From the IMG/VR virus record IMGVR_UViG_3300037583_000003, positions 29,183 to 93,182 of that record: 64,000 nt of DNA; one strand, given 5' to 3'. A program made the translations under genes and the position numbers. The stretch is from a virus. The notes below the pieces were generated by a model. It was not told where the DNA came from, made no database searches, and saw only the letters and a program-made list of their open reading frames with translations. Positions within the stretch are counted from its first letter, which is position 1. The number at the start of each line of letters is the position of its first letter. Positions 19,713-64,000 of the stretch are shown piece after piece.

Positions 19713-22700
19713 ATGAAACCTAAATACCTTAACCCTACAACATCAGACCCTCATTCACCTTGGGACTTACTACCTGCTCCTAACCCAAAGGACTCAACCT
19801 ATCCAGATGACTTCTTCTACAAACAAGTAGCTAAGCACCTACTTAAGGACACTGTACGTATGATGGACAATGGTCTACATATAGACATGGACAAGGTTGA
19901 GGCACTAGAGGAAACCTTAATCGAGGTACTAGCTTCAGTATCTACTAGATTAGAAGATAACAAGACCATTCGTAATTTCCTTGTACTTCGTCATGCAGAT
20001 CTAAAACTAGACTACGTAGCTGACAGAAAAACTAAACTAAGAGAACCTAGCTACTACACTAAAGAGTTTAAACACAAGGATATGGTACACCGTAGCTACT
20101 TTATGAGAGAGTTCCTATTAAGAACTAGTATAGACCCTCCAGAAGAACTACTACCTACTGGTATACCTAAGTGGTCAGCTAACGAGGTAAAGAAACTCCA
20201 AGGAAAATACCCAATACTACAGAAGCTACTACTTGGAACATTACCCCTAACAAACGTTGACGTTATAACAGCTATGTCCAGGTTAGACAAAGATAAGTCT
20301 GACATGTACAACGTAAAGTACCTAGAGCAGATCAAACAGTTACCTGTAGAATTCCCTAAGTTCAATCCAGGTAGCACACTTCAACTACAAAAACTATTTA
20401 ACTACCTAGGCATTGAGTCAGAGTCATTCTCCAAGAAGACTGGTTTAGCTAGTTGGGACAGAAAGCAAGTTGAGCGAGTTAACAAACTAACCAACAAACC
20501 AGATGTAACTAACTTCACTCAAGCCTTCATAGATCACTCATATGCAGCCATAGTTAAGAATAACTTCATAGAGGGATTCTACAACTACAGCATAGACGGT
20601 AGATTGTACGGGACTGTAAAACTCCTAGGAGCTAAGTCAGGTAGACCTACATCAGCTAACCCTAACATGTTGAATTTCCCTTCATCAGGATCTATATTCT
20701 CCAAACCTATAAAGGAGTGTTTCACAGCACCACATGGTTTTGTTATAGGAGCTATAGATTACGCCGCCCTTAATATATCGGGGGTCTTACCTAGTAACAG
20801 GTGAGTAATAATGGAATTTAATTGCTGGAACGCTAAGGGGAAACCTAAGCCAATCAGCAGCGAAAGATAGTTAATTTAATAGTCCCGTAATCGTACTTAG
20901 ACTATACTTTAATCAATAAAGGAGACTGTATGAAAATGTACAATTACGCTTACATAGAATGTAAGGATTACATGAAAATAGTTATCACAAAGTTAGACGA
21001 CGACTCTTTCTACAAAGAGGGTTACTGTGATAACGACGTAAAACCACAAGTAAAAGCTACTGGTGTAAGATACGCAAATACTGGGTACTTATACCTGGCA
21101 CGAAAAATTAACTGGACGCGTTCAGAGACTATCTACGCACGTAGAGTAGGCTTCAAGTGAAGTCGAAACAGTTCCTACCCTATCCTACACGGAGGGTAAA
21201 GATATAGTCCGATACCACAATAAATTGTGGAGTAGTCTAACGAACTACATAACATATAAGCGAAGATCGTGTAATAGCTAACCTATCTGGTGACAAAAAC
21301 AAACTTGGTATATTCACTCAAGGGCTAGATGGTCATTCACTAGCTGCCTGTTACTATGTACCAGACAGAGTAGCCGTTATTCTAGGTATTACAACCAAAG
21401 AACTACTAGATGACATAACTAAGGCATCTAGATTACTAAAGAAGCTTGTAGACGACAAAGTACCTGCTGCTGTAAAAATCAGAGGGTTCTTTAAAGCAAC
21501 AAGCTTCGCATTAGCGTAGACGTACATGCGCCTTTATGGAGTAATCCATATCGAACAACTATATAAATGCTGGGACTTCCAGTTAAACTAACCTATAACC
21601 TATTACAGGCCATGAACAAGCGGTTAGTTATGGAAAATCAGCAGGTTAAACTTTTATATTTATCTAAGTAAGCAACCTGGTACACTATAACAAACAAAGG
21701 AATCTTATATGATAAAGGTAATAGAAAATTTCCCGAACTACACAATAAGCACAGAGGGTAGTGTAACAATGACAGTATCAAACGTAACTAAGAAGCTCTG
21801 GGTTGGTGCTAATGGCTACTTGCACGTAGACCTAAGTTCTAATGGTTTTACTAAGAAAGTTTCACTCCATAGACTACTAGCAAAACACTTCTTACCAAAT
21901 TCTGGTAACAAACGTACTGTAAACCACATAGATGGTAATAAGTTAAATAACAGCTTGTGTAACTTAGAGTGGTCTACTGACTCAGAAAACCTAAAGCACG
22001 CTTACGACACAGGTTTAAGATCTTGTCAGGCTACTTACACGAATTGCCAACTAGAGGACATACTCACTAACATGTACCTTAAAGGTATAACCTTAGTAGA
22101 CATTTCTTTCTACGTTGGTCTAAAGTGTTCAGCACTTAGTGTGTCACTTCGTAAAGCAGCTGCAAGACTTGGTCTAACAGAGGAATACAAAAGTTCCTCT
22201 GCCGACAATATAAAGGCTAGGCATAAACTTGTAGGCGTACTCAACACCAAAACCATCAGGTTACAGATGATAAATGAGCCTACTGGTGACGTGGTAAGAA
22301 CGTTTAGATCTCTTAAAGAGGCTAAAGATTTTCTTGGTGTTAGCTCATCAGGTCCTATAAGTAATGTACTTTCAGGTAGGCAGAAAAGAGCTTACAAGTA
22401 TTTGTGGAAAAAGGTTTAACCCCAACGACTATCCCGTAAGGGAGTACACTCAAGTGAGTGGAAACGTATAGTACCCTGAAAAGGGTAATGATATAGTCTA
22501 CTCTGTTTAGAGATAAGCAGAAGTTCATAAGCGAACTGGTACTACTTAACGACTAGTATTGAATACAACGATGGCTCATTCCCACCAAACATAGCAGCTA
22601 CAGCAGGTATACCACTTGCGGATGCAGAGAGAATTTTCAATGCTTACCACAACGACATGTATCCTGGCATTACTCGCTACAGGGAAGAGTATGTGCTACC

Positions 22701-25759: not shown

Positions 25760-28444
25760 ATGACTAAACACATCCAAGTAACCAAACGAGATGGTAATAC
25801 AGAACCACTAGACCTAGACAAAATCCACAGAGTTATATCTTGGGCTGTAAAAGGACTAGAGGGAGTATCTGTATCAACAATAGAGCTACAGTCACGTATC
25901 CAGTTCTACGATGGCATAACGACTTCAGATATCCACGAAACAATCATAAAGTCTGCTGCTGATCTCATATCTACGGAATCACCAGATTACCAGTACGTAG
26001 CTGCTAGGTTAGCTATGTACCACTTACGTAAACGAGCATTTGGCAGTTTTACTCCTCCATCATTAGAATTACACATAAACACCTTAGTAAAGTCTAACCA
26101 CTACGACAAGCACATACTTGAGGACTACTCTAGTGCAGAGCTATCAGAGTTAGAGGACTCTATTAACCATGCACGTGACTTCACCTTCAGTTACGCTGGA
26201 GTTAAACAACTTGAGGGCAAGTACCTCCTACAGAACAGGGTAACAGGTCAAATATATGAGTCTCCACAGTTCATCTACATGCTAGTTTCCCTGTGCTTAT
26301 TCGCTAGCTACCCTAGAGAAACTAGACTACAGTATGTAAAGGATTTCTATGAAGCAACATCTACATTCAAACTATCTTTACCTACACCAATACTAGGTGG
26401 AGTCAGAACACCATCTAGGCAGTTCAGCTCTTGTGTACTCTTAGACACTGATGACTCACTTGACTCTATCAACTCGGTATCATCAGCCATAGTTAACTAT
26501 ATCTCCCAACGTGCAGGTATAGGCGTAAACGTAGGACGTATTCGTGCTTTAGGTAGTGAGATACGTGGAGGTGAAGCTAAACATACAGGATTAATTCCCT
26601 TCATCAAACTATTTCAAGCCTCAGTAAAATCTTGCTCTCAAGGTGCTATTAGAGGTGGAGCTGCTACCTTATTCTATCCGCTATGGCACTTAGAGGTTGA
26701 GTCACTTCTAGTACTTAAGAACAACCGTGGTGTAGAAGAGAACCGAGTTAGACACCTAGACTACGGTGTACAAATCAACAAGCTTATGTACCAACGTATG
26801 ATTGAGGGTGGGACTATTACCCTATTTAGTCCATCTGATGTACCTAACCTATATGACTCCTTCTTCTCAGACCAAGACGAGTTCGAGAGACTATACAAGA
26901 TCTACGAATCTGATCCTAGTATCCGTAAAAAGTCTATACCAGCAATTGATCTATTTGTGCAACTAGCACAGGAACGAGCACAGACTGGACGTATCTACAT
27001 ACAGAACGTAGACCATTGCAACACCCATAGCCCATTTGACCCAAATGTAGCACCTATCAGACAATCAAATTTATGTGTTGCTCCAGAAACCCAAGTACTA
27101 ACTACTAACGGTTACATACCTATAGCTGAGTTAGATGGTACAAAAGTACAAGTATGGAATGGTATAGAATGGTCTAGTGTACACGTACATAAGACAGGAA
27201 CTAACCAAAAGTTACTTAAAGTTACTACCTCTAGTGGGCAGACTTTAGAGTGTACTGAGTACCATAAGTGGTACATATATGACGAGTACTCTGGCTTACT
27301 GAAAGTTAAGCGAACGGTTAACCTAGAAGCTGGTGATAAACTAATCAAGGCTAGTCTACCATCAGGGGAGCTAGTACCTGAAGAGTTCAATAAAGTCATC
27401 AGTGTCACAGACGAAGGTAGAACAGATGACACCTATTGTTTTACTGAGCCTAAACGAGGTATGGGTATGTTTAACGGCATACTAACTGGTAACTGTTTAG
27501 AAATAGCTTTACCAACTACTCCACTGGGTCGAACTGAATACGAAGGTGAGATTGCTTTATGTACACTATCTGCTTTCAACCTAGGAGCTATAGATTCTCT
27601 AGATGAACTAGAACACCTATCTAACCTAATCGTTAGAGCTTTAGATAACCTATTAGACTACCAGAACTACCCTGTATCAGCTGCTGTAAAGTCTGGACAA
27701 GGACGTAGACCTCTTGGTGTTGGTGTAACTAACCTAGCCTATTACCTAGCTAAGAACGGTGTTTACTACTCTAACGGTTCAGCTAACAACCTAGTCCATA
27801 GAACCTTTGAGGCAGTACAGTTCTACCTTTTAAGGGCATCTAACAAACTAGCTCGTGAAACAGAACCTTGTGAGTACTTTCATGAGACTACTTATGCTAC
27901 TGGTGTGCTACCTATCGACACTTACAAGTCTGATGTAGACACCGTATGTAATCAACCACTTCTACTAGACTGGGAGAGTTTACGCTCTGACATAACGGAG
28001 CATGGTTTACGTAACAGTACACTAAGTTCACTAATGCCCTGTGAAAGTAGTTCGATCTTGTCTAACTCCACTAACGGTATAGAACCTCCTAGAGGCTACG
28101 TATCTGTGAAGTCTAGTAAGGATGGTGTCCTAAAACAAGTAGTCCCAGAATACCTCAAACTAAAGCAAAACTATGAGCTTCTATGGGACATACCAAACAA
28201 CACTGGATACCTAGAGTTAGTAGCTATTATGCAAAAGTTTGTAGATCAAGCTATCTCAGCTAACACTAACTATGACCCTACTAAGTTTATAGACTCTAAA
28301 GTACCAATTAAGCAAGTACTTCAAGACATCCTATACAGCTACAAGCTAGGTCTTAAGACACTCTACTACCACAATACTAGAGATGGTGCTTCAGACCAAG
28401 CAGAAGTAGATGACGGATGTGCTAGTGGTGCATGTAAACTTTAA
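25760..28444 (+). CDS. nrdA: Ribonucleotide reductase class Ia large subunit with mini-intein
   Basis: An 894-residue precursor of NrdA; after intein removal 754 aa, close to E. coli NrdA (761). N-terminal ATP-cone (IQVTKRDGNTEPLDLDKIHRV), active-site Cys in FSSCVLLD, thiyl-radical Cys in NLCLEIALPT, its disulphide partner in ALCTLSAFNLG, the radical-path Tyr region near YNALMPT-like SSLMPCESSS, and C-terminal shuttle CASGACKL. It reduces NDPs to dNDPs together with NrdB, starting 38 nt downstream. The 140-residue intein begins at residue 439. AGAGGAA precedes the ATG by 6 nt; the 77-nt gap upstream has no clear promoter. Confidence 0.96.
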   Translation: MTKHIQVTKRDGNTEPLDLDKIHRVISWAVKGLEGVSVSTIELQSRIQFYDGITTSDIHETIIKSAADLISTESPDYQYVAARLAMYHLRKRAFGSFTPPSLELHINTLVKSNHYDKHILEDYSSAELSELEDSINHARDFTFSYAGVKQLEGKYLLQNRVTGQIYESPQFIYMLVSLCLFASYPRETRLQYVKDFYEATSTFKLSLPTPILGGVRTPSRQFSSCVLLDTDDSLDSINSVSSAIVNYISQRAGIGVNVGRIRALGSEIRGGEAKHTGLIPFIKLFQASVKSCSQGAIRGGAATLFYPLWHLEVESLLVLKNNRGVEENRVRHLDYGVQINKLMYQRMIEGGTITLFSPSDVPNLYDSFFSDQDEFERLYKIYESDPSIRKKSIPAIDLFVQLAQERAQTGRIYIQNVDHCNTHSPFDPNVAPIRQSNLCVAPETQVLTTNGYIPIAELDGTKVQVWNGIEWSSVHVHKTGTNQKLLKVTTSSGQTLECTEYHKWYIYDEYSGLLKVKRTVNLEAGDKLIKASLPSGELVPEEFNKVISVTDEGRTDDTYCFTEPKRGMGMFNGILTGNCLEIALPTTPLGRTEYEGEIALCTLSAFNLGAIDSLDELEHLSNLIVRALDNLLDYQNYPVSAAVKSGQGRRPLGVGVTNLAYYLAKNGVYYSNGSANNLVHRTFEAVQFYLLRASNKLARETEPCEYFHETTYATGVLPIDTYKSDVDTVCNQPLLLDWESLRSDITEHGLRNSTLSSLMPCESSSILSNSTNGIEPPRGYVSVKSSKDGVLKQVVPEYLKLKQNYELLWDIPNNTGYLELVAIMQKFVDQAISANTNYDPTKFIDSKVPIKQVLQDILYSYKLGLKTLYYHNTRDGASDQAEVDDGCASGACKL
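27074..27493 (+). mobile_element. Mini-intein in NrdA (140 aa)
   Basis: In-frame insertion between QSNL and CLEIALPT. It starts with Cys1 (CVAPETQVLTTNGYIPIAEL, block A), has block B GQTLECTEYHKW with the T-x-x-H motif, block F DDTYCFTEPKRGMGMFNGI and ends ILTGN followed by Cys+1. The penultimate residue is Gly instead of the common His, a known but less common variant that may slow Asn cyclisation. No LAGLIDADG or HNH domain, so it is a minimal intein that cannot home by itself. The first extein residue after it is the catalytic thiyl-radical Cys (439 in the spliced protein). Confidence 0.95.
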
Positions 28445-63248: not shown

Positions 63249-64000
63249 TTAGAACACAGTACTTCCACCAAAGTCATCTATGTCATCACCTAATCCACCT
63301 ATCCATATATCAGATCGTCTACCTTCATTTAGGTCACTACTTTCTATAGTTACTTCTGTGCTGGGCAGGAATACTTCCATCTCGCTGAGCTGGTTAAGAA
63401 GATCTATACAATTGTGTACCACTACACCGTTAGCTATGAAGTTGTGTACCTCTTTTACTTCCAGGTTGTATGTCAGACTTTGTCTTCTGTCCTTTCTTCC
63501 TAAGAGAGATACTGTGACTACATTCTTTGGAACATCCTGCTTTACTACAGCACCAGTTGAGCGTACATCTACATCGCTTGTCAGTGACTTAACTCTCTCT
63601 AGTAACATCTGCTTGTGTTGCCTAGAACCCACATCACCTGTTGTGTTAGGTAACCCTGTTGTAGTATTTAGCTTTAGCTCTCTTACAGTACTAGCTATCT
63701 TGATACTGTTACACTTAATTACCTCATCATCTTCCGTAAGAAGCTCTGCTGGTATATACCCCATAGTAGTCAGTACTGGATGATTACTCGTCATGTTAAG
63801 CTCAGTACCATCAGAGAACGCATACGTCATAACCTCTTTTGTTCCTGTGGCTATAACATCTTCAACTAACTGCGGCAAGAAGTCTACATCAAAAGTCATA
63901 ACTTTATCGCCTATAGCTACATCCTTTATACACTTAGTGCTAAGGTCTGCCATTGTAACTAACGTATCCCCTGTCAGACAATCATCATGTTTAAGAGCTT
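63249..64000 (-). CDS. terL: Terminase large subunit, C-terminal part, interrupted by intein (5' end outside window)
   Basis: The frame is open to the window edge. After removal of the intein the visible extein reads ALKHDD-CIDLLNQLSEMEVFLP and ends GGLGDDIDDFGGSTVF, which fits the end of an N4-type TerL: the HDD with following Cys-Ile-Asp is the nuclease-domain end (last catalytic Asp region), and a short acidic-Gly tail is common. TerL cuts and pumps DNA into proheads with the portal. The ATPase part lies beyond the window, so the assignment depends on this tail, the N4 gene order and the intein site. Confidence 0.75.
   Translation of the reverse strand, partial: ALKHDDCLTGDTLVTMADLSTKCIKDVAIGDKVMTFDVDFLPQLVEDVIATGTKEVMTYAFSDGTELNMTSNHPVLTTMGYIPAELLTEDDEVIKCNSIKIASTVRELKLNTTTGLPNTTGDVGSRQHKQMLLERVKSLTSDVDVRSTGAVVKQDVPKNVVTVSLLGRKDRRQSLTYNLEVKEVHNFIANGVVVHNCIDLLNQLSEMEVFLPSTEVTIESSDLNEGRRSDIWIGGLGDDIDDFGGSTVF
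63411..63980 (-). mobile_element. Intein in TerL (190 aa)
   Basis: Starts at Cys1 (63978-63980; CLTGDTLVTMADLSTKCI, block A), with block B DGTELNMTSNHPVLTTMGY (T-x-x-H), block F LTYNLEVKEVHNFIANG and block G VVVHN before Cys+1. All splicing residues are canonical (Cys1, Thr/His, His-Asn, Cys+1). At 190 residues it has a ~60-residue linker (RELKLNTTTG to VRSTGAV) where an endonuclease would sit, but no LAGLIDADG or HNH motif, so it is a mini-intein or a remnant after loss of the endonuclease. Confidence 0.93.

Follow-up and report, generated by a model that had tools for sequence, protein, structure and literature searches.

A 64,000-nucleotide stretch of viral DNA (the window; bases 29183-93182 of the 93,182-base IMG/VR record IMGVR_UViG_3300037583_000003, sharing its right end with the record) carries at that end part of the gene for the terminase large subunit (TerL), interrupted by a 190-residue intein on the minus strand (63411..63980). 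In all likelihood, this is a cis-splicing intein from a widespread group of phage terL loci with an overprinted HNH homing endonuclease, which the window copy has lost.

In this group, a protein with HNH_3 and zinc-finger domains is encoded within the intein, where inteins usually carry their endonuclease, and mostly has an ATG of its own. In the proposed mechanism, ribosomes translating terL would pass through the endonuclease DNA in the other frame and make a long disordered linker from it, to be removed by the intein together with itself, and internal initiation would supply the free endonuclease. The free HNH protein would cut intein-free terL, and repair would copy the intein into the cut gene (homing).

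The TerL intein and its insertion site

On the minus strand, 63249-63998 forms an open frame of 249 codons, which comprises the N-extein end ALKHDD (63981..63998, with the record ending 2 bases further), the intein (CLTGDTLV...VVVHN) and the C-extein CIDLLNQLSEM...GGSTVF followed by a stop (63249..63410), which resembles the C terminus of TerL from Alteromonas phage AD45-P1 (AD45). The class 1 intein residues are present, namely Cys1 (63978-63980), TSNH in block B, the C-terminal HN and a +1 Cys (63408-63410), and the columns for Cys1, the block-B His and the terminal Asn are invariant across 30 aligned intein sequences. The intein matches Pfam Intein_splicing (42.3 bits; cut-off 35.8), and AlphaFold (30 alignment rows) predicts a Hint fold with block-mean predicted local distance difference test (pLDDT) values of 84-98 at residues 11-100 and 94-97 at residues 161-190. 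Residues ~101-157, modelled with low confidence and with one predicted helix, make up a linker that is predicted to be mostly disordered. The top Foldseek matches in the PDB are the Ssp DnaB, Mtu RecA and Npu DnaB mini-inteins (E-values of 5e-11 to 1e-9). No endonuclease family was matched in the 190-residue intein frame. The intein occupies one open frame, rather than separate open reading frames (ORFs) for its halves as in fractured or split inteins, and contains a splicing domain, which ShiLan-type insertions do not. Judged by these features, the element is a class 1 intein, which would splice in cis. The open frame, the Pfam match and the Hint fold bear out the coordinates and junctions given in the original prediction for a 190-residue intein with canonical residues.

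The remainder of the host gene is found at the opposite end of the record, which starts inside a minus-strand ORF encoding the N-terminal 435 residues of TerL (53% identical to AD45-P1 TerL); by comparison with AD45, the two record ends leave ~39 TerL codons uncovered. The gene upstream of the intein is therefore terL, and the placement originally predicted, in TerL at KHDD/CIDLL (the slash marks the junction), agrees with the homology to AD45 TerL on both sides. A tblastn search with the 435-residue part returned 487 phage records, with N4-like phages such as LIT1 among the matches listed. Pfam Terminase_6N did not recognise the TerL of this record, and a Pfam scan of protein P0002 gave no match. 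By homology of the ATPase and nuclease parts flanking the intein, the host protein is an N4-like terminase large subunit.

The insertion site is intein-free in AD45 TerL (...KALAHDD/AIDLLNQFSEM) and empty in 78 of 80 TerL relatives from IMG/VR, the other two being truncated before the site; an intein is present at this place in three related sequences, L094, L117 and L118. The +1 residue in the closest TerL group (n=11) is Ala in nine members and Val in one, with one truncated, and is Cys in the window, L094 and L117. The Cys may have arrived together with the intein.

A phmmer search with a wider-group TerL that bears an intein at DNH/CID aligned its EDHDNHC with EDKDNHT of the SPP1-type terminase nuclease structure 2wbn, the aligned motif being the last (third) catalytic motif of the RNase H-like nuclease. 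The HDD/CID of the window was placed at the last catalytic motif by motif comparison with the wider-group TerL, through which the link to SPP1 was made; a PDB search with the profile of the N4-like TerL stopped short of the nuclease motif. This comparison puts the window intein in the third catalytic motif of the nuclease domain of TerL, between residues that have to come together in the active site. The TerL nuclease should therefore be inactive before splicing.

Two N4-like terL sequences, L087 and L090, have a longer in-frame insertion between the positions of AD45 TerL residues 140 and 141. The insertion is near-identical in both, differs from the window intein and, by eye, resembles an intein that includes an endonuclease region. 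The end of the record (window position 64000) and base 1 of L094 both fall at or inside the terL intein, and such contig ends may point to a sampled population in which variants with and without the intein coexist.

An HNH endonuclease in the other frame

The close relatives of the window intein, identified by sequence identity, are L094 (67% over the first 98 residues), L117 (63%) and L118 (49%). The TerL of L117 is a single ORF of 1183 residues with two inteins (L117:1571-5122). Within the second intein, a 211-codon HNH ORF (L117:4285-4920) runs in another frame, while the TerL-intein frame is open throughout. The HNH ORF begins with ATG behind GAGG and matches Pfam HNH_3. L094 has the same layout up to the end of its contig (HNH_3 E-value of 7e-15), and in L118 a zinc-finger-like ORF alone remains in the HNH frame. 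A low-confidence linker and an ordered Hint domain are predicted for L117, as for the window intein. The first intein of L117, located after GLGK near the TerL N terminus, has an in-frame LAGLIDADG_3 match.

Scanning viral contigs directly with the window protein yielded no relative. The C-side pattern HNC[..]DLLNQ gave three matches, all by chance, and the pattern D-D-C-x-T-G-D-T matched four viral stretches, with a TerL intein in L094 alone, and also 17 genome stretches, none of which held one. The idea of an intron within the intein is unsupported, as Rfam found no intron in the loci of seven relatives tested.

The window copy retains, in place of an intact HNH ORF, a fossil of the ORF tail (63457..63714, minus strand, frame 2 relative to the intein), in which the HNH motif and start codon are absent and several stops are present. 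In the HNH frame, local alignment of the window linker with the C-terminal part of L117 HNH scores 166, compared with at most 113 across 500 shuffles preserving the intein-frame protein; in the intein frame, the linker aligns with the final portion of the linker of L117 at a score of 104 (at most 43 across 1000 shuffles). This homology in both frames indicates descent of the window intein from an intein with an out-of-frame HNH. Compared with its L117 counterpart, the window intein is shorter by 124 codons, and an in-frame loss of about this length would have taken the endonuclease start and HNH motif, leaving as the present linker a readthrough of the former zinc-finger end. It is thus probable that the intein once homed by means of an overprinted endonuclease of its own, which has since been lost, and help in trans need not be assumed. 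The original prediction, in which neither intein of this phage had an evident endonuclease, stands for both copies in their own frames but not for the out-of-frame HNH remains in the TerL copy. Its suggestion that spread would need help in trans or selection was misleading, given that relatives encode the HNH inside the intein in the other frame.

Collaborative homing, in which the intein never had its own endonuclease and was spread by a nuclease acting in trans, such as T5orf172 encoded near terL in the same record, is unlikely. A T5orf172 domain is present at L002:2324-2644 (41.4 bits; cut-off 20), separated from terL by a few small ORFs on its upstream side, and a comparable arrangement has been published for an intron in ICP1 terL (PMC10448857). 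However, a GIY-YIG nuclease gene is annotated at a comparable position in the intein-free AD45, so that a nearby nuclease gene does not track the intein, which weakens this explanation, as does the homology of the window linker to HNH-coding DNA. Help in trans for the window intein is possible and not needed.

Distribution and coding of the overlap

A scan of IMG/VR with the HNH alignment yielded 197 loci, the best 80 of which were kept; the scan used a motif pattern taken from this HNH, so that the following proportions are not prevalence. The HNH lies inside an open intein frame at 47 loci, 46 of them in one phase (HNH in the -1 (+2) frame) and one, L192, in the other; L094 counts among the 47 as far as its contig reaches. 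At 21 loci, intein parts flank the HNH with stops between them (both halves at 20, IntC only at one), and 12 loci have neither arrangement. L195, at first a candidate for the open group, combines an open overlapping frame with an absence of intein halves, and was reassigned to the last category. Clustering at 90% identity reduced the 80 loci to 60 clusters (34 open, 16 split and 10 neither). Among the ORFs scanned, 34 of 36 spanning ORFs match Intein_splicing and 31 of 36 the TerL family phrog_2, and all 20 HNH ORFs match HNH_3.

The same layouts occur in named phages. A tblastn search with L117 HNH found 16 phage records, 11 of which were fetched, the other five being duplicates or near-duplicates by name. 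The HNH lies within an open intein frame in Acinetobacter phage Highwayman, gut phage fragment MT838676 and Tetrasphaera phage TJE1 (the last from outside the 16 records); the Highwayman and TJE1 records list TerL alone at the HNH locus. The HNH lies between intein halves in Vibrio phages 1.238.A and 1.245.O and Lactobacillus phage CL2, and no intein halves flank it in the six other phage records fetched. In the three phages of the second layout (L122, L123 and L126), the HNH gene splits terL, with intein halves on both sides; the C-terminal half is missing from the annotation of the CL2 record. In Brochothrix phage BL3 (L008:727-2607), two in-frame stops separate the terL intein halves, which are held by gp2 and gp3, and a zinc-finger remnant occupies the same relative frame as the HNH. 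The TerL of BL3 may be made by trans-splicing.

The overlap could in principle be a product of decay or error, with a once in-frame HNH domain displaced by frameshifts or sequencing errors; metagenome contigs do contain errors, and L094 is cut at a contig end. This explanation is disfavoured and very improbable: both frames are open in 34 separate clusters, 33 of them in one phase, the overlap is also found in Highwayman and TJE1, and none of the 80 loci has an intein-half match and the HNH in one ORF.

Selection on the two frames was assessed by shuffles and by pairwise comparison. With the HNH protein and codon usage fixed, 56 intein-frame stops are expected and none is observed in the 33 same-phase clusters (sum of log10 P = -38.6), which had been chosen for being open (33 of 60). 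The same shuffle gives stop depletion at the 10% level in none of the 16 split clusters and in two of the 10 neither clusters (L195 and L206). In the most similar pairs, changes at HNH codon positions 1/2/3 number 1/2/17 (L194/L201), 8/4/21 (L148/L172), 36/25/83 (L142/L188) and 15/10/42 (L134/L135). In each of the 75 contiguous pairs listed, many of which share members, identity is higher for the HNH than for the linker. The concentration of changes at HNH third positions argues that the hidden frame is held by selection and that the linker frame mainly avoids stops.

The start signals bear on how the HNH would be made. The nested start is preceded by a Shine-Dalgarno (SD)-like 4-mer at 20 of 37 loci, compared with 41 of 411 control starts, where several candidate starts were allowed per nested locus and single starts were counted in the control. 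An alternative to internal initiation is -1 programmed frameshifting, which would produce the HNH as a TerL-IntN-HNH fusion. The -1 position of the HNH frame at 46 of the 47 open loci and the lack of an SD-like sequence at the other 17 of 37 nested starts favour this possibility. It is nevertheless unlikely, as the HNH frame of L094 has stops up to three codons before the ATG, leaving little room for a slip site, and ATG is the first start codon at 32 of the 37 loci (counted by eye).

A further alternative gives the nested HNH a function in DNA packaging with TerL instead of in homing. HNH proteins beside terminase genes can aid terminase cutting, as in HK97 (PMC10448857), and HNH relatives adjoin terL in six isolate records examined (five without an intein and one with a split intein). 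A packaging function is nonetheless unlikely: the presence of the element is patchy, with the site empty in most TerL relatives as given above (78 of 80), and the HNH motif is absent from the window, L118 and BL3.

An HNH tree (67 rows, quick method, LG+G4) requires 17 label changes among contiguous, split and neither. The starred branches force only one or two changes per label and give no direction, which suggests repeated splitting without demonstrating it.

Together with the limits stated for the locus scan, the stop test and the SD-like sequences, several points weigh against an overprinted endonuclease ancestral to the window intein. Only three close relatives of this intein were found, and the identity of the fossil depends on pairwise similarity to one of them, L117. 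The family hidden Markov model (HMM) misses the fossil at E<=1, while detecting BL3 (1e-19) and L118 (~3e-9), so the fossil is clear only against a near relative. Its similarity is also partly common to the intein frame, because both frames read the same DNA. Finally, the sequences, frames, homology and the selection on the HNH frame in the relatives are direct observations, from which we infer splicing, internal initiation, cutting and homing.

Other mobile elements and comparison with known systems

As originally predicted, the phage has two inteins. The second is in NrdA at SNL/C (140 residues, residues 439-578; 27074..27493, plus strand) and has no endonuclease; its match to Pfam Intein_splicing (19.4 bits) is under the cut-off. 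No trace of an out-of-frame HNH was found in the window NrdA intein or in NrdA of Pseudoalteromonas phage PH357 (L214). PH357 has a longer NrdA intein at the same site, with an in-frame LAGLIDADG-like motif (by eye) and with Gln instead of Asn as the C-terminal residue. Considering the HNH-bearing TerL relatives, the remains in the window and the PH357 insert, both window inteins are best read as copies that have lost their endonucleases. The same phage also has a separate mobile element on the plus strand (20761-21231 and 21709-22419), where a DNA polymerase A fragment ends in a group I intron (Rfam RF00028, 61 bits) and an I-HmuI-like HNH_3 ORF follows.

Inteins are usually described with the endonuclease as one of their domains, so that cutting, splicing and decay are tied together in one protein. 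An overprinted endonuclease would free the two proteins from each other while tying them in DNA. More broadly, a whole class of phage terL inteins could overprint its homing endonuclease out of frame, in one phase across very different hosts, and form a possible stepping stone to split inteins; we consider the chances of this reading to be even. The window intein would then be one end state, its endonuclease dead and its linker shortened, with splicing apparently kept. As the endonuclease would be made separately, stops in the linker would cost only a change to trans-splicing, so the overlap could bridge contiguous and naturally split inteins. If true, this would account for the past mobility of some 'endonuclease-free' inteins, reveal nuclease genes missing from records such as those of Highwayman and TJE1, and suggest a way in which natural split inteins could arise that can be put to the test. 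Both layouts exist in named phages, so the idea can be tested at the bench. No intein with an out-of-frame HNH was found in the literature searched, which covered few subscription papers and no bioRxiv collection (for example, 10.1101/2025.01.02.630785, on a phage-intein 'non-canonical architecture', was outside it).

Several known systems share parts of this arrangement. Mycobacteriophage TerL inteins occupy seven sites, a to g, all in the ATPase domain; five representatives spliced, and the two tested had endonuclease activity (PMC5050341). The window intein, likewise in TerL, differs from the inteins described there in that it interrupts the last catalytic motif of the nuclease domain and in that the endonuclease of its relatives is out of frame. 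The ShiLan domain has HNH and zinc fingers hidden in the other frame of a host-open insertion in a DNA methylase, with no splicing domain (PMC11855218). The TerL loci share the hidden out-of-frame HNH and zinc fingers with that insertion as described, and differ in that a complete intein surrounds the HNH. Fractured genes, in which a nuclease gene lies between the halves of a split intein, were reportedly described by Dassa et al. in 2009. They resemble the 21 split loci found here, as in Vibrio phage 1.238.A and, similarly, Lactobacillus phage CL2; the present loci differ in that the nuclease is an HNH_3 protein with zinc fingers and relatives show the contiguous, overlapping state. Canonical LAGLIDADG inteins have the same Hint domain and the same endonuclease insertion point between its N- and C-terminal parts, but their endonuclease is in the protein frame, whereas in the TerL intein group it is out of frame.
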